A stretch of 52,419 nucleotides of DNA, from contig JAHIOW010000008.1 of the NCBI GenBank assembly GCA_018895075.1, positions 1 through 52,419 on the forward strand, given 5' to 3'. Positions 11,613 to 45,430 of the stretch are shown here, piece by piece. The notes under the pieces are model-generated. The model worked only from the letters and a program-made list of their open reading frames with translations. It was not told where the DNA came from and did not search any database. The stretch is from Candidatus Omnitrophota bacterium (GTDB lineage Bacteria > Omnitrophota > Gorgyraeia > Gygaellales > Profunditerraquicolaceae). The position numbers and the translations under genes were made by a program. Each line of letters opens with the position of its first letter. The first letter of the stretch is position 1.

Positions 11613-12431
11613 ATGAGCAATATGCATTTTACCAAGATGGTTGCTTCAGGGAATGACTTTGTGGTAATAGAGAGTAGTCAGGAGCCAGGAGTCAGGAGTT
11701 TGGGGTCTTTGGCAAAAACAATATGTGATAGAAAATACGGCATAGGTGCGGATGGATTATTAGTCTTAGAAAAATCTAAGATTGCGGATATAAAGATGCG
11801 TATCTTTAATTCAGATGGTTCAGAACCTAAGATGTGCGGTAATGGCGCAAGGTGCGTGGCATTATTTAAAAGCGCAGGGCGCAAAGCGCAAGGCGCAAAA
11901 CTAAAGATTGAAACCAAGGCAGGAATCATAAAAGCCGAAGTTAACAAGGATAATGTAAAAATAAAACTCACTGACCCTAAGGGCCTAAAGTTAGATATGC
12001 CGATTAGGTTAAATCGCACGCTCAAGGTGAATTTTATCAATACCGGAGTCCCGCATGCAGTAATATTTGTAGAAGGCCTGGATAAAATTGATGCGGTTAG
12101 TTTAGGCAGGCAGATACGTTACCATAAAAAGTTTAGGCCTGCAGGGGCAAACGCGGATTTTGTAGAGGTAGTGAATAATAATACTATCAAAATCAGGACG
12201 TATGAAAGAGGCGTGGAAGATGAAACTTTGGCCTGCGGGACAGGGGCAGTGGCGTCTGCATTACTATACGCTATACGCTATACGCTATCCGCTATCCATA
12301 AAATAAAGGTTGTTACAAAAAGTAAAGAGATATTAAAAGTCTATTTTAATAAAATAAATAATAAATTTACAGATGTTTGGTTAGAAGGTAAGGCAAGGAT
12401 AGTTCATAAAGGGTGCTGGTGCGACGAATAA
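11613..12431 (+). CDS. dapF: Diaminopimelate epimerase
   Basis: FTKMVASGNDFVVI, MCGNGARCVALF, NTGVPHAVIFV, YERGVEDETLACGTGAVASA. Confidence 0.95.
   Translation: MSNMHFTKMVASGNDFVVIESSQEPGVRSLGSLAKTICDRKYGIGADGLLVLEKSKIADIKMRIFNSDGSEPKMCGNGARCVALFKSAGRKAQGAKLKIETKAGIIKAEVNKDNVKIKLTDPKGLKLDMPIRLNRTLKVNFINTGVPHAVIFVEGLDKIDAVSLGRQIRYHKKFRPAGANADFVEVVNNNTIKIRTYERGVEDETLACGTGAVASALLYAIRYTLSAIHKIKVVTKSKEILKVYFNKINNKFTDVWLEGKARIVHKGCWCDE
11676..11703. repeat. 7-nt-period degenerate tandem repeat in dapF (AGTCAGG/AGCCAGG/AGTCAGG/AGTTTGG)
   Basis: Direct reading. Confidence 0.8.
11872..11899. repeat. 7-nt-period tandem repeat in dapF (GCGCAGG/GCGCAAA/GCGCAAG/GCGCAAA)
   Basis: Direct reading. Confidence 0.85.
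12264..12297. repeat. 7-nt-period tandem repeat in dapF (CTATACG x3, CTATCCG, CTATCC)
   Basis: Direct reading; encodes LLYAIRYTLSAIHK. Confidence 0.9.
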
Positions 12432-17930: not shown

Positions 17931-20720
17931 ATGGAAAATGCTATTGTTATCAGGGGCGCTAAAGAGCATAACCTAAAAAATTTAAATCTGCAATTGCCAC
18001 GCAATAAACTCATTGTGATTACCGGGCTTTCCGGCTCCGGTAAATCGAGCCTGGCCTTTGATACCATATATGCCGAGGGACAACGCCGTTATGTAGAGAG
18101 TTTATCCAGTTATGCCCGCCAATTTTTGGAACAGTTGCAGAAGCCCGATGTGGAATACATTGAAGGCCTATCGCCGGCAATAGCTATTGAGCAGAGGACT
18201 GCAGGAGGAAATCCCCGCTCTACAGTAGCCACCCAAACCGAAATTTATGATTACCTGAGATTGCTCTTTGCCCGTATCGGCAAAGTATCCTGTTATCAAT
18301 GCGGGCAACCCATAGAAAGACAGAGCTCCCAGGAAATTATAGAAAGAATAATGGCCTTACCACCGGGTCGAGATATTCAGATTTTAGCGCCTATAGTCAG
18401 AGGCAGGAAGGGAGAATATAAGGATATATTCAGCCACATTCAAAAAGCAGGATTTGCGCGCGCGCGTGTGGATGGTAAAGTCTATGAGTTATCAGCAAAA
18501 ATAAAACTTCAGAAATATAAGATGCACAATATAGAAGTGGTGGTAGATAGGCTTCAGATAAAACCTCAGATAAAAAACAGGATTACAGATTCCATTGAGA
18601 CTGCGCTTAAGGTGGGCAAAGGAACAATAGCTGTAATCACAGGCAGCAGGGAAATCATCTTCAGTGAACAGTATACCTGTAACAAATGTGGCATAGATAT
18701 TGCAGAAGTCCAGCCGCGCATCTTCTCTTTCAATTCTCCCTATGGCGCCTGTCCGGTTTGTAATGGCCTAGGCACAAAACCTGAGTTTGACCCGGATTTA
18801 ATCATTCCCGATAAAAATAAGTCCATAAATGCAGGGGCAATTGGGCCCTGGAGGAGGGGAGGAAAGGGATACATCCTTTATTACCGCTGGCTCATTCGCC
18901 GGCTCTCTTATCAGCTGGATTTTGACCTGGATGTACCGTTTAAGAAATTAAGCAAGGATATACAGAGGGCCATACTTTACGGGAGTGATGAACACATCAA
19001 TGGTAAGCCGTTTGAAGGTATAATTCCCCATTTAGAAAGATTATTCCATCAGACAGAAAGCGATTATTTAAAACAAGAAATATCCCGATTTATGTCCAGC
19101 TTGCCTTGTCCGGGATGCGCAGGGGCAAGGCTTAAAAAAGAGAGTTTATCTGTTACCATTGCCGGTAAAAATATATGGCAGTTAACTCAATATTCTATAA
19201 AAGAGGCATACGCTTTCTTTAAAAAATTAGAATTGAGGCCAAGAGAAAAGATTATTGGCCAGCAGGCCCTGAAGGAGATAATACAGAGATTGCAATTCTG
19301 TATTGATGTGGGTTTGGAATACCTGACTCTGGAGAGGAGAAGTTCAACCCTTTCAGGCGGCGAAGCGCAAAGGATCCGCCTGGCCACTCAAGTAGGCTCG
19401 GGGTTGGTAGGGGTATTATATATATTGGATGAACCCAGTATCGGTTTACATTACAGGGACAACGTAAAACTGATATCCACATTGAAGGCATTAAGAGACT
19501 TAGGCAATACCTTGATTGTAGTAGAGCATGATGAAGCTACGATTTTGGCTGCGGATTATATCCTGGATTTAGGGCCAGGCGCAGGCAGGGCAGGCGGTGA
19601 GGTGGTTTTCTCCGGCACAAAAGAAGAATTGCTAAGGCATCCGGATTCACTTACTGCCAGGTACCTAAGAAAAGAATTAAAAATAGATACACCTATAAAA
19701 AGAAGGCCCTGGCAGGATAAAAAATTTTTAGAGATAAAAGGAGCCAGAGAGCATAACCTCAAAGATATAGATGTAAAGTTTCCCTTAGGCCTTTTTATCG
19801 GTGTTACCGGCGTATCCGGCTCGGGTAAATCCACCTTGATTGATGAAATATTGTACCGGGGCCTGGCGCAGAAGTTATACAAGTCCAAAGAAAAACCCGG
19901 ATGGCATAAAGAGATTATTGGCCGAGAACTTATTGATAAGGTTATTGTAGTTGACCAGTCTCCTATAGGCAGGACCCCGCGTTCCAATCCTGCTACCTAT
20001 ACCGGTTTCTTTAGCCCTATCCGCCAGTTATTTAGCGGGATTCCCGAAGCGCGTATGCGCGGATATAAACCGGGGAGATTTTCTTTTAACGTCAAAGGCG
20101 GCCGCTGCGAGGCATGCACAGGCGACGGCATCAAGAGGATTGAGATGCATTTTTTACCTGACGTTTATGTAAAATGCGATGTCTGTAAGGGCAGGCGTTT
20201 TAATGAAGCAACGCTTGAGGTAAAATACAAAGGTAAAACTATTGCCGATGTCTTAGAGATGACTGTAGAGGAGGCATTGGATTTATTCAATAATATCCCT
20301 CAGGTAAAAAATATACTCCTTACGCTTTATAATGTGGGCTTGGGTTATATAGAGCTGGGCCAGCCGGCAACCACATTATCCGGCGGGGAGGCGCAGCGCG
20401 TAAAGCTTTCCCTGGAATTAAGCAGGCGCGGGACAGGCAAAACCCTGTATATTTTAGATGAGCCTACCACCGGACTGCATTTTGCAGATACGCAGAAACT
20501 CCTTTCTGTCCTTCAGAAGTTAGCGGACCGCGGCAACACCGTTATCGTCATTGAACATAATTTAGAAGTAATAAAATGCGCCGATTATATTATCGATTTA
20601 GGCCCGGAAGGCGGAGATAAGGGCGGTGAGATTGTAGCTAGCGGCAGCCCGGAGGAATTAATTAAAGTGAATAATTCTTATACGGGCGAGTTCTTGAAGA
20701 AATTGTTGAATAAGAGATAA
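17931..20720 (+). CDS. uvrA: Excinuclease ABC subunit A
   Basis: [60 protein letters not shown]; two ABC cassettes, zinc-finger CxxC motifs. Confidence 0.98.
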
Positions 20721-35470: not shown

Positions 35471-35501
35471 TAGCAAATAGCAAATAACTAATGGCTAATA
35501 G
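35471..35501. repeat. 7-nt-period degenerate repeat (TAGCAAA TAGCAAA TAACTAA TGGCTAA), inverted relative to 35559-35600
   Basis: Direct reading. Confidence 0.8.
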
Positions 35502-35504
35502 TAT

Positions 35505-37007
35505 GTGAAAATGAAAACAAAGAAAATCAGTAAAAACTTATGGAAAATATTTTTCTCTGGCTATTTGCTATTTGTTATTGGCTATCTGCTATTTGCTACT
35601 CATTGTTTCTCTCAAGATATAAAATCCCCTAATGTCGCAGGGAGTTTCTATCCGGATGAACCTGGCGAGTTATCTAAGATAATAGATAATTTTCTTGATG
35701 CTGCAAACCCGGAATCTGTTAAAGGAGATATTATTGCGCTTATTTCGCCACATGCAGGTTATGGATATTCTGCTGCGACAGCCGCCTATGGATATAAACT
35801 CATCAAAGATAAACCATACAAGACAGTGGTAGTGATTGGTTCCAGTCATTACTATAGATTTAGCGGGGTTTCGGTTTATCCTGAGGGTATCTTTCGCACG
35901 CCCTTGGGAGATTTAGAAATAGATAATGAGTTTACGCAGGGATTATTAGATAAAGATATTGAGATTTTCTTTGATCCAGACGCCTTCCAAAAGGAACATT
36001 CAATAGAGGTGCAGTTACCATTTTTACAAAAGGTTTTATCTAATTTTAAGATAGTGCCCATAGTTATGGGGGATTGCAGTTTCGCAACCTGCCAAAGATT
36101 GGCAGGTTTTCTTAGAGAGATAATCGGTAGTCGTTCGGACGTTTTGATTGTTGCCTCCAGTGACCTCTACCATGGCTATGATTACGAAGAGGCAGAAACA
36201 GTGGATGGCTTGACTTTGTCCTACCTTAATCAGATGAACCCCAAATTATTGGACCAAAAATTAAGAGAAGGAAGTGTCCAACTTTGCGGTGGCATTCCAG
36301 TGGTAACCACAATGCTTCTAGCCAGAGAACTTGGGTATGATAAACCGAAGGTATTAAAATATACAAATTCCGCTATTGTTACTGGTAAAAGGATTAAAGG
36401 AATTTGGACAGTAGGTTATGCCAGTTGTGTAGTTAGTAAAGAGGAGGAGAGTATGTTAAATGAGAAGCAAAAAAAGAGGTTATTGGAGATTGCGCGTGGC
36501 TCGATAGAGCATTACCTTAAGACAGGTAAAAAATTAGAGGTTTCGGAAGCTGATCCGGGGTTGTGCAAAGAGATGGGTGCCTTTGTTACCCTGCATAAAC
36601 AGGGCCAGCTGCGGGGATGCATAGGACATCTTATCGGGAATAAACCTTTATATCTTACGGTTAGAGATATGGCTATTGAGTCTGCGGTAGGTGACCCGCG
36701 CTTTACTCCTGTTGAAGAAAACGAACTTAAAGATATTGATATTGAAATTTCTGTGCTTTCTCCTCTGCAAAGAATAGACTCGTCTGATAAAATCCAATTA
36801 GGTATGCATGGTGTCTTAGTAAGACAAGGCCTAAGAAGCGGCGTTTTCCTTCCACAGGTAGCCATTGAAACCGGTTGGTCAAAGGAAGAATTCCTGTCAA
36901 ATTTGTGTGCTCACAAGGCAGGTATTTCGCCTGATGCCTGGAAAGATACATCTACAGAGATTTACATATTTACTGCAGAGTTATTCTCTGAAAAAGATTA
37001 TCAATAA
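35505..37007 (+). CDS. Secreted Memo-domain + AMMECR1-domain fusion (AmmeMemoRadiSam B-A type)
   Basis: Memo: SPNVAGSFYPDEPGEL...ISPHAGYGYSAATAAYGY...SSHYYRF...ASSDLYHGYDYEEA; AMMECR1: GAFVTLHKQGQLRGCIGHLIGNKPLYLTVRDMAIESAVGDPRF...SVLSPLQ. Confidence 0.92.
   Translation: MKMKTKKISKNLWKIFFSGYLLFVIGYLLFATHCFSQDIKSPNVAGSFYPDEPGELSKIIDNFLDAANPESVKGDIIALISPHAGYGYSAATAAYGYKLIKDKPYKTVVVIGSSHYYRFSGVSVYPEGIFRTPLGDLEIDNEFTQGLLDKDIEIFFDPDAFQKEHSIEVQLPFLQKVLSNFKIVPIVMGDCSFATCQRLAGFLREIIGSRSDVLIVASSDLYHGYDYEEAETVDGLTLSYLNQMNPKLLDQKLREGSVQLCGGIPVVTTMLLARELGYDKPKVLKYTNSAIVTGKRIKGIWTVGYASCVVSKEEESMLNEKQKKRLLEIARGSIEHYLKTGKKLEVSEADPGLCKEMGAFVTLHKQGQLRGCIGHLIGNKPLYLTVRDMAIESAVGDPRFTPVEENELKDIDIEISVLSPLQRIDSSDKIQLGMHGVLVRQGLRSGVFLPQVAIETGWSKEEFLSNLCAHKAGISPDAWKDTSTEIYIFTAELFSEKDYQ
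35559..35600. repeat. Six-unit 7-nt-period repeat coding the signal-peptide core of the Memo-AMMECR1 protein
   Basis: GGCTATT TGCTATT TGTTATT GGCTATC TGCTATT TGCTACT; encodes GYLLFVIGYLLFAT. Confidence 0.88.
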
Positions 37008-37012
37008 TCTAC

Positions 37013-37750
37013 ATGCATAGATTCTATAATCCTTGCCAAAATATCTCTGGCAATAAAATAATCATACAAGATAAGGGACTCCTCCATCATCTCAAAGATG
37101 TTTTACGCCTTAAGAGAGAAGACGAGGTTATAATATTTGATGGCCAACGTAACGAATATCAGTGTTCTATCGAAAAACTTACAGGTAAAGTCATCTTAAA
37201 TATCAAGCAGAAGCGGTCATTTTCAGAAATCAGAGAAGATATCAAGATTACTGTAGCTGTGGCTTTGCCTAAAAAATCTAAGATGGATGGAATTGTAGAT
37301 AAACTTACACAGCTGGGAGCAGATAGGATTATTCCTTTAGAGACTGAGCGTGTCAGTGTTAATCTTGATGATAGAAAGAAAAAGCTGCGACTTCAACGTT
37401 GGAGGAGAATCGCCTTAAGCGCCAGTCAGCAAAGCCAGAGAAATAACTTACCTATTATCGATTCAATAAAAGACATAAATGATGTATTATCTAATCTGCA
37501 GGGATTTGATTTGAAATTGATACCCACATTGACTGGAGAACGGGAACCATTAAAAGAAATTTTAGATAAATCTAAACCCCAAAATATATTAGTCCTTATT
37601 GGACCAGAAGGGGATTTTACGCTGCAAGAAGTCATTAAGGCTAAAAGAGCCGGCTTTATTGCAGTATCATTGGGTGATTTAGTCCTACGTGTGGAGACCG
37701 CCGCTATCGTAGTCGCTGGTTTTATTAGATTATATTATGAAAACGATTAA
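37013..37750 (+). CDS. rsmE: 16S rRNA (uracil1498-N3)-methyltransferase
   Basis: HHLKDVLRLKREDEVIIFDG, VDKLTQLGADRIIPLETERV, LIGPEGDFTLQEV, LGDLVLRVETAAIVVAG. Confidence 0.93.
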   Translation: MHRFYNPCQNISGNKIIIQDKGLLHHLKDVLRLKREDEVIIFDGQRNEYQCSIEKLTGKVILNIKQKRSFSEIREDIKITVAVALPKKSKMDGIVDKLTQLGADRIIPLETERVSVNLDDRKKKLRLQRWRRIALSASQQSQRNNLPIIDSIKDINDVLSNLQGFDLKLIPTLTGEREPLKEILDKSKPQNILVLIGPEGDFTLQEVIKAKRAGFIAVSLGDLVLRVETAAIVVAGFIRLYYEND

Positions 37751-39134
37751 CCCTTCGACTACGCTCAGGGTTAATGGTGAGCGAAGTCGAACCATTAAAT
37801 TCTTTACTTTGGGTTGTAAGGTAAATCAATATGAGACTCAAGTTATCAGGGAAAGATTTATTAAAGCCGGCTTTAGGGAATTAGAAGATGGTCAACCTGC
37901 CGATATCTATGTCATCAATACCTGTACCGTAACCTCAACAGCTGACCGTAAATCTCGCCGTCTAATTCATTATTCTCATCGGCAGAATCCTAAAGCCAAA
38001 ATTATCGTTACAGGCTGCTATACAGAATTAGATAGCGATGAAATCGCTAAAATTTCCGGGATAAGCCACATCGTTAAGAATAAAGAAAAAAATGGGATTG
38101 TGGGATTATTAGACGAACATAACGAACTTAACGAACATAACGAAGTAGGTATCCCGAATGCAGTTAATCAAGGTAGCCGTACTTCGGGATCCCGAAGAGA
38201 CACAGAAGCAGTTACTACATTCGGGATAAGCAATTTTTCTGGACATACCCGGGTATTTTTAAAGATTCAGGATGGTTGCAATAATCTTTGTTCTTATTGC
38301 AAGATACCTTTAGTCAGGGGAGCTTCAAAAAGTAGGCCTTTGAAGGAGATTATTCGAGAGGCAGAAAACCTCGTAAAAAATGGCTTTAAAGAAATAGTGC
38401 TTTCTGGCATTTGCTTAGGGGCTTATGGCAGAGATTTACAAGGACAGTTAAGTCTTGTTAATGTGGTTGAGGCATTAGAGAATATAGAGGGATTATTACG
38501 CATCAGATTAAGTTCTATAGAAGCGGCTGATGTCTCGGATAGATTAATCCAAAAGATGAGGCAATCTAGGAAATTATGTCGGCATCTGCACATTCCTATT
38601 CAAAGTGGCGATGATGCGGTTTTAAAGAAAATGAAGCGTAGCTATAAAGGTAGAGATTATTTAAATCTGATTAACAGGATAAAAAGATATATGCCAGGGG
38701 TAGCTATAACTACAGATGTTATGGTAGGCTTTCCCGGGGAAGATGAGATTAACTTCAAAAATACCACAGACTTGATTAAGAAAGTTCTTCCGCTTAGAGT
38801 GCATATTTTTCCTTATAGCCCAAGAGAAGGCACACCTGCTTATAATTTTAAAGATAAAGTAAATCCTGTCAAAATAAGAGAAAGGATTTTGCGTCTCCAA
38901 GGTATCGCCAAGGCCTGTGCACTTGCTTATAGAAAAGGATTCCTTACCAAAAATACGGATGTGCTTGATGTGCTTATAGAGACTCAATCCAAGGAAAATC
39001 CTACACTTTGGGAGGGTTACACTGATAATTATATAAAAGCCTTAGTTAAATCTAACCAAAACCTAAAAAACCAACTTGTCTCAGTGAGATTAGAAAAGAT
39101 AACTAAAGATTTTATCTTGGCAGAATTTCATTGA
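37737..39134 (+). CDS. mtaB: tRNA threonylcarbamoyladenosine methylthiotransferase MtaB-type, with two in-frame palindromic insertions
   Basis: FFTLGCKVNQYETQV, NTCTVTSTADRKSRRLI, KIQDGCNNLCSYCKIPLVRG (radical-SAM CxxxCxxC), TTDVMVGFPGE. Confidence 0.92.
   Translation: MKTINPSTTLRVNGERSRTIKFFTLGCKVNQYETQVIRERFIKAGFRELEDGQPADIYVINTCTVTSTADRKSRRLIHYSHRQNPKAKIIVTGCYTELDSDEIAKISGISHIVKNKEKNGIVGLLDEHNELNEHNEVGIPNAVNQGSRTSGSRRDTEAVTTFGISNFSGHTRVFLKIQDGCNNLCSYCKIPLVRGASKSRPLKEIIREAENLVKNGFKEIVLSGICLGAYGRDLQGQLSLVNVVEALENIEGLLRIRLSSIEAADVSDRLIQKMRQSRKLCRHLHIPIQSGDDAVLKKMKRSYKGRDYLNLINRIKRYMPGVAITTDVMVGFPGEDEINFKNTTDLIKKVLPLRVHIFPYSPREGTPAYNFKDKVNPVKIRERILRLQGIAKACALAYRKGFLTKNTDVLDVLIETQSKENPTLWEGYTDNYIKALVKSNQNLKNQLVSVRLEKITKDFILAEFH
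37746..37799. repeat. Palindromic element at the rsmE/mtaB junction (encodes INPSTTLRVNGERSRTIK in mtaB)
   Basis: ATTAACCCT/AGGGTTAAT, TTCGACTACGCTC/GAGCGAAGTCGAA (12/13), TTAATGGT/ACCATTAA. Confidence 0.9.
38115..38141. repeat. 9-nt tandem repeat in mtaB (GAACATAAC GAACTTAAC GAACATAAC)
   Basis: Direct reading; encodes EHNELNEHN. Confidence 0.9.
38150..38228. repeat. Double-hairpin palindromic element inside mtaB
   Basis: TATCCCGAATG...CTTCGGGATCCCGAAG...CATTCGGGATA; outer arms perfect 11 bp, central 16-bp palindrome. Confidence 0.9.
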
Positions 39135-40548: not shown

Positions 40549-41142
40549 ATGTTATTAGGGGGCATAAGACAATTTAACTGGCTGGATATCGTTGTTCTAA
40601 TTCTAATATTACGAATAGGTTACATCGCGCTGAAGAATGGCCTACCAGTAGAACTATTTAAATTCTTCGGCACCATCTTTTCGGTGTATCTGTCTATGCA
40701 TTATTATGTTTTGTGGGCGGTGTATTTACAAGAACGTATCCCTCTAAAAAATATATCCTTGGGATTCTTAAGACTTTTTTCTTTTGTGGCCTTATCCGCC
40801 TTGGGTTATTTTATTTTTCTTCTCTTGCGTAAGGTATTTTACCGGTTGATTACAGTAGAGCCGGTCGAGAAATTAAATAAATGGGGGGGCTTTATCTTAA
40901 GTATGCTCAGGGGTATTTTATTGTTAAGTCTAATATTATTTATTCTGGCTCTCTCTAATATCAGTTATTTAAATAAGAGCGCCAGAAACTCTTATTTAGG
41001 CAGGCGTATTTTTAAGGTTGCTCCTTTTGTCTACAGCGGATTATGGAATAATTTGGTTTCTAAGTTTAGGACTGCTGAGGAATTCAATAAGGCTATCCTT
41101 GAGGTTCAACCCTTGGGTTCTGCTGTAAAACCTAATCCATGA
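40549..41142 (+). CDS. CvpA family membrane protein
   Basis: NWLDIVVLILILRIGYIALKNGLPVELFKFFGTIFSVYLSMHYY, four hydrophobic segments. Confidence 0.75.
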   Translation: MLLGGIRQFNWLDIVVLILILRIGYIALKNGLPVELFKFFGTIFSVYLSMHYYVLWAVYLQERIPLKNISLGFLRLFSFVALSALGYFIFLLLRKVFYRLITVEPVEKLNKWGGFILSMLRGILLLSLILFILALSNISYLNKSARNSYLGRRIFKVAPFVYSGLWNNLVSKFRTAEEFNKAILEVQPLGSAVKPNP

Positions 41143-42014
41143 AATTATTCCGTCTTTATAATCAGGTTATAAAATTTGGCAGGGCAGGCGATCCCAGAAA
41201 AAAAACCCGGATAGATTCTTATCCTGATACCGCTATACTGTATGGGGAAGCGGATACCCAGATAAAAAGGATTCTTATAGGTATAGATATAGAGGTAGGC
41301 GAACTCTTATTAGCAGATAAGATTCGTAAGCAACAGGGACTAGATTTAGTAATCTCTCATCATCCGCAAGGTAAGGCATTAGTTTCTTTATACAAGGTGA
41401 TGGGGGTGCAGGTAGATTTATTAAGAAAGTTAGGAATATCTAAGTCCGTTGCCCAGGAGCTATTAGAGGAGAGAAAGAGAGAAGTAGAGAGGAGGTTCCT
41501 GCCGCATAATCATATGCGCGCAGTAGACGCAGCGAGGTTGTTAGATTTGCCATTTATGTGCGCGCATACACCGGCGGATAATCAGGCGCACAGTTTCATA
41601 CAGGAATTATTGAATAAAGAAAAACCTAAGAAACTGAAGGACATCCTGGATATCTTGATGGGTATCCCTGAATACAAACAGGCAGCAGGAGACTTGGCCG
41701 GGCCAAGGATTATTTTGGGAAATCCTAATCGCCCGGCGGGTAAGATTTCTCTGGAGATGACCGGAGGTACGTCAGGCCCTAAAGAGGCATTTGCCAGGTT
41801 GTATAAGGCCGGGATTAGGACCCTGGTGTGTATGCATATGAATGAGGAACATTTTAAGAAAGTAAAGGATATCAATCTTAATGTAATTATTGCCGGGCAC
41901 ATCTCTTCTGATACCTTGGGTTTAAACCTGCTTTTAGACAGAATCGAAAAAGAAGACAAAGAAAAGTTCCAGGTTATTAATTGCTCAGGGTTCCACCGAA
42001 TTCCTCGTAGATAG
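41139..42014 (+). CDS. NIF3-like (NGG1p-interacting factor 3) family protein
   Basis: KRILIGIDIEVGELLLADKIRKQQGLDLVISHHPQGKAL, MCAHTPADN, INVIIAGHISSDTLGLN-type C-terminal motif. Confidence 0.75.
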   Translation: MKLFRLYNQVIKFGRAGDPRKKTRIDSYPDTAILYGEADTQIKRILIGIDIEVGELLLADKIRKQQGLDLVISHHPQGKALVSLYKVMGVQVDLLRKLGISKSVAQELLEERKREVERRFLPHNHMRAVDAARLLDLPFMCAHTPADNQAHSFIQELLNKEKPKKLKDILDILMGIPEYKQAAGDLAGPRIILGNPNRPAGKISLEMTGGTSGPKEAFARLYKAGIRTLVCMHMNEEHFKKVKDINLNVIIAGHISSDTLGLNLLLDRIEKEDKEKFQVINCSGFHRIPRR

Positions 42015-42462
42015 TAGAGTACAGAGAACAGAGTACAGATTACAGTAAAAGATGGAAGATAAAAATTCTGTTTTTGACTTTGAAAAATTAAAGGTTTATC
42101 AAAAAGCACTTGATTTTATAGATAAGATATTTGAGATTTGTAAAAACTTACCTCGTGAATATAAGTATTCTTTAGGAGATAATTTATTAAGAGCAGGTTT
42201 ATCAATAGCAAATAATTTGGCTGAAGGTAATGGAAAAAAATCCAAAAGAGAAAAACAGCGTTATTTTGGTATATCCTTAGATTCAACAAGAGAATGTATT
42301 TCGGTATTTAATGTTTTCAAAAGACAGAAGTTAATTACAAATGATAGATTTTTAGAAATTCGTTCAGATAGCAGAGAAATTACAGGTATGATTTATAATT
42401 TAATCGGTTCTTTAGCCTAGCCTGTCTTCTGTTTTCTGTACTCTGTTATCTGTAATCCAATA
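42009..42462. mobile_element. Putative S23/IVP cassette: four-helix-bundle ORF between inverted 42-nt heptamer-periodic arms
   Basis: Left arm 42009-42050 (AGATAGT AGAGTAC AGAGAAC AGAGTAC AGATTAC AGTAAAA); right arm 42421-42462 (CCTGTCT TCTGTTT TCTGTAC TCTGTTA TCTGTAA TCCAATA); 24/28 identical over the best inverted match. Confidence 0.6.
42052..42420 (+). CDS. Four helix bundle protein (S23 / 23S rRNA intervening-sequence protein family)
   Basis: FEKLKVYQKALDFIDKIFEICKNLPREYKYSLGDNLLRAGLSIANNLAEGNGKKSKREKQRYFGISLDSTRECISVFNVFKRQKLI. Confidence 0.88.
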   Translation: MEDKNSVFDFEKLKVYQKALDFIDKIFEICKNLPREYKYSLGDNLLRAGLSIANNLAEGNGKKSKREKQRYFGISLDSTRECISVFNVFKRQKLITNDRFLEIRSDSREITGMIYNLIGSLA

Positions 42463-42478
42463 CTATAGAGATATAAAC

Positions 42479-45430
42479 ATGGCCGGTCGTATACCAGAAA
42501 ATATATTAGAGGATATATTAAGCCGGGTAGATATCGCGGAGGTAATCTCCAGTTATATACCCTTGAAGCGCGCCGGGAGAAATTTTAAGGCCTGTTGCCC
42601 TTTTCATCATGAGAAGACGCCTTCTTTTATGGTCTCGCCTGAGCGTCAGATTTATCATTGCTTCGGATGTTTTCCCGCAGGTTCTTTAATAAAAACAGAA
42701 AAAGGCTTTCATAGAATTGAAGATGTACAAGTAGGGCAAATGGCTCTTACTCATCGTGGTAGATTTAAACCTGTTATAAGAACTTTATGGAGACCTTATA
42801 ATGGAGAATTAATAGAGGTATATACAAGAAAGTCTAGTTTCCCTGTAACTGTGACTGCGGATCACGAAATTTTTGCTATAAAAACAGAAAATTGTAAGTA
42901 CAAATCTAGAGAAAATAGAATATGTCAGTGGCGATGTAAGTTATATTGTCCGGAAAAGTTTTTCAAAAAATATAAGATACAACAATTACCAGCTAGACAA
43001 CTGACCCTTAACGATTATTTGTTATATCCAATTAATAAAAAAATAAACAACATTAAATTTATAGATTTAAATAAATACTATAACCGCAAAATTAGTAACT
43101 TCGGCCCAGATATAAAATCTATCCCTACAAAAATAGAAATTGGCGAAAGATTTTTAAAATTAATAGGATATTGGATAGCTGAAGGTAGCAATCATCGGGC
43201 TTATATTAGATTTAGCTTGGGTGGCCATGAAAGAAAATTTGCTGAGGAAGTAAAGAGACTCATTGAAGATATTTTCAACATTAAGACCGCCATTCATATT
43301 AGAAAGATTGGGAAAAGCGGGATAGAGGTAACCGCATGTAATTCAAAATTGGCTAATATTTTTGAGAATCTTTGTGGAAAATTGGCAGAAAATAAACATA
43401 TTCCATTTGAATTGCAAGATTTACCTCCTTTGAGTCAAAGAATAATTCTGGATGCTGTTTTTAAGGGAGATGGTTATACCGGTAAAATCAACAAATCTAA
43501 AACAAATAGAGAATTTAAAGCTATTACTACTGTATCTTTAGTTTTAGCGGAGCAGTTAAAAGATATCTTATTACGGCTCGGTGTTTCTCCTACTTTTAGT
43601 ATTGAGAAAGAAAAGGTAGATAAAAATAAGGTAAATCATAAAATGGCCTATACTATCTCATGGCAAGAAAATATTAGATTGCATTTTTCAGATATTACTC
43701 AAATTGACAATATTTTTTATCAAACCTTGCCAATTAAAAAAATTATAAAGAAAAAGTTTTCAGGAAATGTATATAATTTGACAGTAGCAGAAGATCATTC
43801 TTATACAACACCCAATTTTGTTGTTGGAAATTGCGGAAAAGGAGGGAATGCCTTCAATTTTCTGATGGAGTATGAACGCATGGAGTTTCTTGAGGCAGTC
43901 CAGACCCTGGCAAAAAAATGCGGTGTTTCCCTGCCAGAGGCGCAAAGACAGGACGCGCAGACTACAAGTCTTTATACGCAACTTTATAAAATAAATGAAT
44001 TAGCGGCTTTGTTTTATAGGAATACCTTGAATTCTCAAAATGGCCAGGAGGCAAAAGATTATCTCTTAAAACGGGGCGTAAAAGAAGAGAGTATGAAATT
44101 ATTCCAGTTGGGTTTTGCTGAGGATAAATGGGATGCCTTAATAAACCATTTAAGGGCTAAAAATATAAGTCTTTCCTTACTGGAGAAGGCAGGTTTAATT
44201 TTGGCTAAGGAAGGCGGCGGCTACTATGACCGATTTCGCCAGCGTATTGTCTTTGCGATATTGGATATGAAATCAAGGCACCTTGGTTTTGGCGCCAGGT
44301 TTCTTTCGGCTCATCCGGGCGCGGATAATAATTTAGCCAAATACATCAATTCGCCGGAGACGTTCATATACAGCAAGGGAAGGCACCTCTATGGATTGAA
44401 TTTTGCCAAAGAGGCCATTAAAGAGTTTGATTATGTAGTGATCGTGGAAGGTTATCTAGATTTTATCCTTCCTTTTCAGGAAGGTTTTAAAAACATTGTC
44501 GCCTCGCTTGGCACAGCCTTTACCACAGAGCAGGCACGACTTATAAAACGCTATACACATAATGTGGTGATGGTCTATGACGCAGACAAGGCCGGGGAAC
44601 TGGCTACTTTAAGGACATTAGATATATTTATTGAAGAAGGGATGGATGTGCGGGTTGTTTCTTTACCAGAAGGTTTTGACCCTGACCTATTCGTGCGCAA
44701 ACAGGGCATCGAAGATTTTAAAGAAAAGATTAAAAGGGGAGAAAACCTGTTTGACTATAAATTGAGAATCTTAAAATCGCGCTACAACCCTAAAGATATA
44801 GAGGGTAAGGCCAAGATTTCTCAAGAGATACTTCTGACCATAAACAAATTTAAGAACGCGGTTTTAAAATCCGAATATATCAAGAAACTGGCGCAGGATT
44901 TACGCCTAGAAGAAGATGCCTTATTACAGGAATTAAAGAAGATAAAAGAAGAAAGGCCGTATCCGGGCTTAAATCAGGCAGCGCCCAAGAAACTGAATAT
45001 AAATCCTGCAGAGAGGTTATTGATAAAGTTAATGTTAGAAGAGAGAGAACTTATTGAGCGTATAAGAGAGAGCGTTGAGCCCGGGGACTTTCAGGATGCA
45101 AGAATTTCCAGGGTGGTAGCAATAATGTTTGAGCTTATGGAGCAAGGGAAAAAAATAGAGCCCAGTATTTTAATAAATTATTTTGACGACGAGGATATTC
45201 TACAGGTTATCTCTGAGTCGGCTTTGCTGCCTGAGGTATCCAGCCAAGATAGAGAAAGGATAGTAGGGGATTGTATACAGCGCCTGAAGAGTTCAAGATT
45301 GGCCTTTAAAAGGCAGCGCCTGCAAGAGGAGATAAAGACAGCCGAAAGTTTGGGTGACGAGCAGAGACTAGATAGCCTCAAACAGGAATTTAACCTTTTA
45401 ATTAAAATGAAGCCCAAACTTACGGAATAA
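42479..45430 (+). CDS. dnaG: DNA primase precursor interrupted by an in-frame intein
   Basis: Zinc-binding domain CPFHHEKTPSFMVSPERQIYHCFG|C (split), GKGGNAFNFLMEYERMEFLEAVQTLAKKCG, TOPRIM VVIVEGYLDFILPFQEG...VVMVYDADKAG. Confidence 0.95.
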   Translation: MAGRIPENILEDILSRVDIAEVISSYIPLKRAGRNFKACCPFHHEKTPSFMVSPERQIYHCFGCFPAGSLIKTEKGFHRIEDVQVGQMALTHRGRFKPVIRTLWRPYNGELIEVYTRKSSFPVTVTADHEIFAIKTENCKYKSRENRICQWRCKLYCPEKFFKKYKIQQLPARQLTLNDYLLYPINKKINNIKFIDLNKYYNRKISNFGPDIKSIPTKIEIGERFLKLIGYWIAEGSNHRAYIRFSLGGHERKFAEEVKRLIEDIFNIKTAIHIRKIGKSGIEVTACNSKLANIFENLCGKLAENKHIPFELQDLPPLSQRIILDAVFKGDGYTGKINKSKTNREFKAITTVSLVLAEQLKDILLRLGVSPTFSIEKEKVDKNKVNHKMAYTISWQENIRLHFSDITQIDNIFYQTLPIKKIIKKKFSGNVYNLTVAEDHSYTTPNFVVGNCGKGGNAFNFLMEYERMEFLEAVQTLAKKCGVSLPEAQRQDAQTTSLYTQLYKINELAALFYRNTLNSQNGQEAKDYLLKRGVKEESMKLFQLGFAEDKWDALINHLRAKNISLSLLEKAGLILAKEGGGYYDRFRQRIVFAILDMKSRHLGFGARFLSAHPGADNNLAKYINSPETFIYSKGRHLYGLNFAKEAIKEFDYVVIVEGYLDFILPFQEGFKNIVASLGTAFTTEQARLIKRYTHNVVMVYDADKAGELATLRTLDIFIEEGMDVRVVSLPEGFDPDLFVRKQGIEDFKEKIKRGENLFDYKLRILKSRYNPKDIEGKAKISQEILLTINKFKNAVLKSEYIKKLAQDLRLEEDALLQELKKIKEERPYPGLNQAAPKKLNINPAERLLIKLMLEERELIERIRESVEPGDFQDARISRVVAIMFELMEQGKKIEPSILINYFDDEDILQVISESALLPEVSSQDRERIVGDCIQRLKSSRLAFKRQRLQEEIKTAESLGDEQRLDSLKQEFNLLIKMKPKLTE
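42668..43831 (+). other. DnaG intein (388 aa) with a LAGLIDADG-type homing-endonuclease domain
   Basis: N-terminal block CFPAGSLIKTEKGFHRIEDVQVGQMALTHRG; TADHEIFA; LIGYWIAEGS and ILDAVFKGDGYTG motifs; C-terminal blocks NVYNLTVAEDHSYTTPNFVVGN|C. Confidence 0.94.

Follow-up and report, generated by a model that had tools for sequence, protein, structure and literature searches.

What kind of genetic unit is a small gene of the S23 (23S_rRNA_IVP) family that stands, framed by inverted arrays of 7-bp repeats, between the protein genes NIF3 and dnaG? The locus lies in a 1.05-Mb draft genome (88% complete) of a Candidatus Omnitrophota bacterium, of which the window (the whole stretch of DNA analysed, 52,419 nucleotides) is contig 71. 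S23/IVP, the "four helix bundle protein", was functionally uncharacterised as of 2024 (PMC11270868). A preliminary description of the locus had taken the unit for a free-standing, non-autonomous mobile cassette akin to the intervening sequences (IVSs) of rRNA genes.

Anatomy of the cassette and its surroundings

The features of the locus are as follows (window coordinates).

41139–42014, + strand: left flanking gene DUF34/NIF3, with its stop codon at 42012–42014
42015–42462, + strand: whole cassette, about 450 bp, between the NIF3 stop and the dnaG start; absent from most relatives, present in G037
42016–42045, + strand: left (5′) arm, tandem heptamers AGAGTAC/AGAGAAC/AGAGTAC/AGATTAC
42052–42420, + strand: S23 / 23S_rRNA_IVP four-helix-bundle ORF, 122 aa (PF05635, TIGR02436)
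42422–42457, − strand: right (3′) arm, heptamers CTGTNNT, the reverse complement of the left arm
42479–45430, + strand: right flanking gene dnaG, intein-bearing
35471–35598, no strand assigned: second inverted heptamer pair TAGCAAA / GCTATTT, with a 58-bp loop and without S23

The framing of the S23 gene by inverted heptamer arms is real: the inverted-arm score at the cassette was 19.0, whereas equally spaced arms at 18,876 random positions of the window reached 14.0 at most, and the 24/28 match between the arms given in the preliminary description was reproduced, with 34 nt matching at 82%. The left array (42016–42045; period 7; unit AGAGTAC; 4.3 copies) begins 2 nt past the NIF3 stop codon, and the right array (42422–42457; about five heptamer copies) begins 2 nt past that of S23; a period-7 score of at least 15 is found in 0.2% of random 150-mers. 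The arms had been given as six 7-mers (42 nt) each, the left one starting in the region of the NIF3 stop codon and the right one directly after that of S23. Both are indeed heptamer arrays beside those codons, but the clean stretches are shorter, the count takes in degenerate outer units, and each array keeps the 2-nt distance from its stop. As described, the unit is compact, with no transposase inside, and in the predicted RNA fold of the cassette the arms pair (MFE −97.7, z −3.2). The neighbouring dnaG carries an intein of 388 aa with LAGLIDADG matches (window 42668–43831; aa 64–451 of the ORF), and its orthologue in G037, a genome of a second genus, is without intein.

The S23 ORF matched PF05635 (23S_rRNA_IVP) with 94.7 bits (cut-off, 33.8) and TIGR02436 with 89.7 bits. 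It also matched, more weakly than S23, the Avd families of diversity-generating retroelements (DGRs), namely PHROG 3206 "Avd protein of DGR" (E-value, 2.7e-9), NF033474, and bAvd, in keeping with the earlier statement that Avd belongs to the same fold family. No families outside S23/Avd, including the Y1 (HUH) transposase, were matched. The dN/dS ratio between the window copy and that of G037 is 0.08, and S23 at stable sites shows values of about 0.08–0.13, indicating purifying selection. S23 proteins are mildly basic (median net charge, +3; window copy, +5), and the solved homologues 2gsc and 2rld were deposited with five chains per entry.

The host genome has one S23 gene. The preliminary description had staked its reading on further genomic copies of the arms, and ACAGANN arrays do recur on other contigs, those inspected lying inside apparently conserved genes. 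No reverse transcriptase (RT) was present among the ORFs listed around the cassette (37–47 kb), the only RT match of the host being on another contig, and a search limited to the Y1 family gave two transposase matches in the host genome. Other short repeats were observed in the window. The pair at 35471–35598, which may be a hairpin of a different heptamer lacking S23, overlaps the start of an ORF at 35505, its arm being translated as YLLFVIGYLLF in a signal-peptide-like N-terminus. Solo period-7 arrays at 12264–12297, 11668–11706, and 11872–11898 (units CTATACG, AGTCAGG, and AAAGCGC) stand alone, a search over 1.5 kb having found no inverted partner. The ORF at 37737 begins with INPSTTLRVNGERSRTI (window 37752–37790), which may resemble the peptides encoded by REP-type palindromes.

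Distribution of the design and evidence for movement

We surveyed 239 distinct S23 loci from the host family, the host phylum, and named genomes including Bacteroidota, Planctomycetota, Nitrospirota, CPR, Gammaproteobacteria, and Cyanobacteria, and scored the arms as inverted when the left arm against the reverse-complemented right arm reached at least 14. By these author-chosen thresholds, inverted arms are present at 149/239 and a period-7 array at 172/239 loci, counts of loci that are non-independent; the search for other S23 ORFs with such arms, proposed with the preliminary description, thereby found them in many phyla, and the arm–S23–arm build occurs in at least eleven bacterial groups. 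About one-third of the S23 loci are without inverted arms at the chosen threshold. In the host family, where 53/108 genomes contain S23 genes, about half of these genes have period-7 repeats no farther than 150 bp away, with other periods almost absent except multiples of 7 and little at 300–500 bp. The S23 gene's own arms are inverted at 60% of the family loci, as compared with 1.35% for mismatched arms and 4% for the direct orientation. The corresponding values for own and mismatched arms are 64% and 2.4% in the phylum sample, 65% and 2.2% in the named genomes (80 loci, including Bacteroidota, Planctomycetota, Nitrospirota, Atribacterota, CPR, Syntrophus, and one gammaproteobacterium), 62% and 3% in Gammaproteobacteria, and 50% and 6% on cyanobacterial plasmids. 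The best period among the loci with inverted arms (n = 142, before the cyanobacterial set) is 7 in 110, 8 in 16, and 6 in 4, and the median cassette length is 460 bp. Variant elements with 6-bp (AGGTAN) or 8-bp (ATAGTTCT, AGTTGACA) units were observed at L058, L060, L063, L065, L220, and L247.

Inverted arms were found at none (0%) of 98 other control genes. Heptamer arrays were likewise absent from all six Avd genes that stand beside an RT in DGR loci of several genomes of the same family (L253–L258), one of which has an unrelated inverted repeat. Eight conserved 16S/23S words occur in none of the 318 fetched loci, and an Rfam scan of 16 loci returned a single tRNA and nothing else. The genomes are mostly metagenome assemblies, but isolates (Flavobacterium, Dysgonomonas, Methylohalomonas, Nostoc, and Trichormus) are included, several of them with clear arms; neighbouring genes were called by script from ORFs, except on annotated plasmids.

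The architecture is conserved and the heptamer sequence is not. Units such as ACAGANN, TCAGCNN, CGTATNT, and AGGGAGT, among others, differ among elements, and even from copy to copy within one Flavobacterium genome, with both arms of one element agreeing. S23 has AGGGAAT-type arms in Gammaproteobacteria (L294 and L302) and AGGGAGT/GGGAACA-type arms on Nostocaceae plasmids. In non-orthologous pairs, arm similarity is found in 33% at S23 identities of at least 60%, against 1–3% below 50%, and it extends across phyla, the arms of L182 (Omnitrophota) being like those of L191 and L208 (Atribacterota). Since arm likeness tracks S23 relatedness across unrelated contexts, the arms and the gene travel together, and the arms do not derive from the site of insertion. 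Entry of S23 into pre-existing local heptamer hairpins is disfavoured, because arm sequence goes with the S23 clade instead of with the host.

Mobility of the cassette on an evolutionary time scale is well supported. More than 20 relatives without the cassette have NIF3 directly or almost directly beside dnaG, so that the unit does interrupt a conserved neighbourhood as had been stated, and an S23 gene at this site was found only in the window and in G037. An S23 gene in the same place with unrelated flanks had been named as the finding that would speak against the cassette, and the G037 copy has the same arms as the window. Between the two genomes the pS value is 0.37 for S23, as compared with 0.73 for dnaG and 0.83 for NIF3 (other S23 pairs of the same clade, 0.66–0.74). 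The pS of S23 is far below that of the flanks, and the arrival of the cassette at the NIF3–dnaG site in both lineages therefore postdates the divergence of the flanks; it came about by transfer with site preference. G050 contains two copies that are 91% identical across exactly the arms and the ORF, with an identical truncation of S23 in both, which would fit movement in trans. In G033, two copies with different surroundings are 99% identical from the left arm on, the contigs ending inside the copies. In eight genomes (L024, L030, L033, L039, L042, L052, L064, and L089) S23 has a hot spot where a porin-like gene (…IGSMKVTF) meets a GH57-like gene; it is occupied by different S23 clades with different heptamers and in both orientations. 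The free-standing, IVS-like mobile cassette of the preliminary description is thus supported by the empty sites, the same-site S23 of G037, and the duplicate copies elsewhere; the label "non-autonomous" stays unproven, since the factor acting in trans may be S23 itself.

The GC content of the S23 ORF is lower than that of its surroundings in 99% of the loci (35% versus 45%), and at 87 of 102 loci S23 lies in the sense direction between two co-directional genes. On cyanobacterial plasmids (L429, L437, and L441), S23 is located in CRISPR-Cas operons, in the orders cas6–S23–cas4 or cas10–S23–Cmr3 family. Such operon-internal S23 genes are probably insertions and not Cas components, and should be annotated with this in mind. 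The outer flanks of inverted-arm loci are no more alike than mismatched flanks, giving neither a target-site duplication (TSD) nor a defined junction chemistry. Among 107 genomes, neither RT nor Y1 transposase is associated with S23; no match was found in 50,697 phage records, and PADLOC gave no defence-related hit.

Heptamer arrays without S23

Over 870 kb around S23 loci, a second, S23-less inverted heptamer pair is present near many of them, usually repeating the resident unit. In the three genomes whose S23 has TCAGC arms, triplets of TCAGCNN number 133 (G050), 85 (G087), and 13 (G052), and 87 of the 107 family genomes have none (Fisher p = 0.006; rank test p = 1.5e-5). ACAGANN is found in 26/107, including all five with ACAGA-armed S23 (p = 0.0006; rank test p = 2.8e-6); these counts take in the S23 elements' own arms (5/9 hits in the host genome). 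Several further genomes likewise have arrays but no S23 that matches them, and G026 (L384–L392; 93% complete) has 108 TCAGCNN hits, several as tight hairpins, with no S23 detected. A TCAGC hairpin of G007 fills the pyrH–tsf junction, which is 12–17 nt long in most relatives examined. At the same junction G006 (L399) carries another insertion, about 217 bp long, in which CACGAATT-type repeats are inverted.

In-frame heptamer arrays of about 30–45 bp lie within conserved genes (LolD, EPSP synthase, DHPS, MiaB twice, YggS, ManC, and RnfC; loci L382, L385, L387, L389, L390, L392, L395, L396, and L397). Simple insertion of the arrays into these coding genes was considered, but the net change in length relative to solved homologues is only about +1 to +8 residues, and replacement of a surface loop is therefore the likelier event.

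Proposed mechanism, alternatives, and known systems

We consider it most plausible, with a probability of about 0.6, that the window locus belongs to a widespread family of cassettes of about 460 bp, [heptamer array]–S23–[inverted heptamer array], which have no transposase and in which the Avd-like S23 acts in trans on its own arms. In the mechanism that we propose, a pentamer of S23, with its Avd-like nucleic-acid-binding fold, would recognise the heptamer arms of its own cassette, as nucleic acid in single-stranded or hairpin form, and may help host enzymes to copy them to new sites, with or without the gene; this role and the chemistry of insertion are what we infer. The cassette lacks TSDs and probably depends on read-through transcription; its retention almost only in the sense orientation within strings of co-directional genes would be accounted for in this way. 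Several observations stand against this explanation: neither a TSD nor a defined junction chemistry came to light; the unit encodes no DNA-cutting or DNA-copying enzyme, with RT and Y1 transposase uncorrelated with S23; G026 and other genomes carry arrays without a matching S23; and about one-third of S23 loci have no inverted arms. Purifying selection on S23 at stable sites would suit a host function as well. More tentatively, and as a possibility that we rate below even odds, S23 proteins may drive a large and so far unrecognised class of systems that spread repeats: each S23 clade would recognise and spread its own heptamer, as arrays, as hairpins, or with the gene, through a DNA-copying process that overwrites or inserts short stretches without TSD and with no transposase or RT of its own, so that much of the unexplained heptamer abundance in bacteria (STRRs, GGGAATC of Xanthomonas, and others) would be its footprint.

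Among the alternatives, an IVS operating at the RNA level deserves the most attention, although we regard it as unlikely. Here the arms would pair in the transcript and be kept for folding, RNase III would excise the cassette from the operon mRNA, and S23 would be a passenger or leftover, in agreement with the pairing of the arms in the predicted fold, the sense orientation among co-directional genes, and the Coxiella 23S IVS, in which an S23 ORF, a terminal stem, and heptamers accompany excision by RNase III (PMC4990558). However, G·U-compatible mismatches between the arms are no commoner than A·C-type ones (87 versus 83), the conserved rRNA words are missing from all the fetched loci (0/318), S23 is under purifying selection, and the dispersed S23-less arrays of the S23-arm unit are left unexplained. 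Somewhat less credit is due to the idea that an unrelated host or IS enzyme moves heptamer hairpins, S23 being cargo useful to the host. This would account for S23-less arms that exist and move, and for the long persistence of S23 at some sites with a dN/dS of about 0.1, but among the gene loci examined such arms are present at S23 only, their sequence tracks S23 relatedness, and neither RT nor Y1 transposase goes with S23.

Highly improbable, in our judgement, is that the arms are regulatory or terminator hairpins, or operators for autoregulation by S23, of an ordinary horizontally transferred gene; the arms do abut the ORF on both sides and S23 is mildly basic, yet the duplicate copies end at the arms, arrays are dispersed in-frame within other genes, and comparison with the empty sites shows that the arms arrived together with the gene, as a single unit. 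Chance, or background simple-sequence repeats beside an unrelated gene, would draw on the heptamer arrays elsewhere in the window, but is refuted by the controls (period 7 limited to the near flanks of S23, no inverted arms at the 98 other genes, and none of the 18,876 random positions scoring as high), with 149/239 S23 loci sharing the design, and retains a negligible probability.

There is no accepted explanation for why heptameric repeats are so abundant in bacteria (PMC4692102), and in the open-access literature we found nothing that joins free-standing S23 genes to heptamer arms, the paper on the Coxiella IVS mentioning upstream heptamers. With S23 and its repeats seen as a tiny mobile element, which may help to account for 7-base tandem repeats in bacterial genomes, the function of S23 and the abundance of these repeats become one joint and testable question, each S23 gene carrying its presumed cis sites. 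If S23 does spread its arms, it would constitute a mobile system in which no recombinase can be recognised, and one that may be related to the accessory protein of DGRs.

In REP/REPIN elements with RAYT (TnpA-REP), a single trans-acting gene is flanked by short palindromic repeats, which also lie scattered through its genome. S23 would be analogous in its repeat pattern only, being flanked by a repeat dispersed in its genome (with G026 as an exception); it is unrelated to the Y1 HUH transposase, with which it is also uncorrelated, and its repeats are tandem heptamers of freely varying sequence. MITEs and insertion sequences share with the cassette the inverted repeats and the insertion at conserved sites, whereas the cassette has neither a transposase nor a TSD signal, and its arms are tandem heptamers instead of a family-specific TIR. 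The heptameric simple-sequence repeats of Xanthomonas (GGGAATC, often as inverted pairs; PMC4692102) and Beggiatoaceae (TAACTGA; PMC4679880), as well as cyanobacterial STRRs, are tandem 7-mers like the S23 arms, among which AGGGAAT- and AGGGAGT-types occur, but the published ones (PMC4692102 and PMC4679880) were described without a partner gene or mechanism. The Avd protein of DGRs is a homologous four-helix-bundle protein; the cassette differs from DGRs in having no adjacent RT and no template/variable repeat (TR/VR), and the RT-linked Avd genes of the host's family differ in turn by their lack of heptamer arrays. The Coxiella burnetii 23S IVS (428–444 nt) consists of an S23 ORF with a 28-bp terminal stem, is excised by RNase III, and has tandem heptamers GACAGAT upstream of the ORF (PMC4990558). 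Like the cassette, 23S rRNA IVSs have an S23 ORF inside stem-capable inverted terminal repeats, a length of about 430–450 nt, and no transposase; in contrast, the cassette is free-standing among protein genes in operons, not inside an rRNA gene, and has heptamer arrays on both sides. Altogether, the rRNA IVS is the closest known relative of the cassette, which is set apart by its location, its two-sided arms with a unit that follows the S23 clade, and its dispersed copies without S23.
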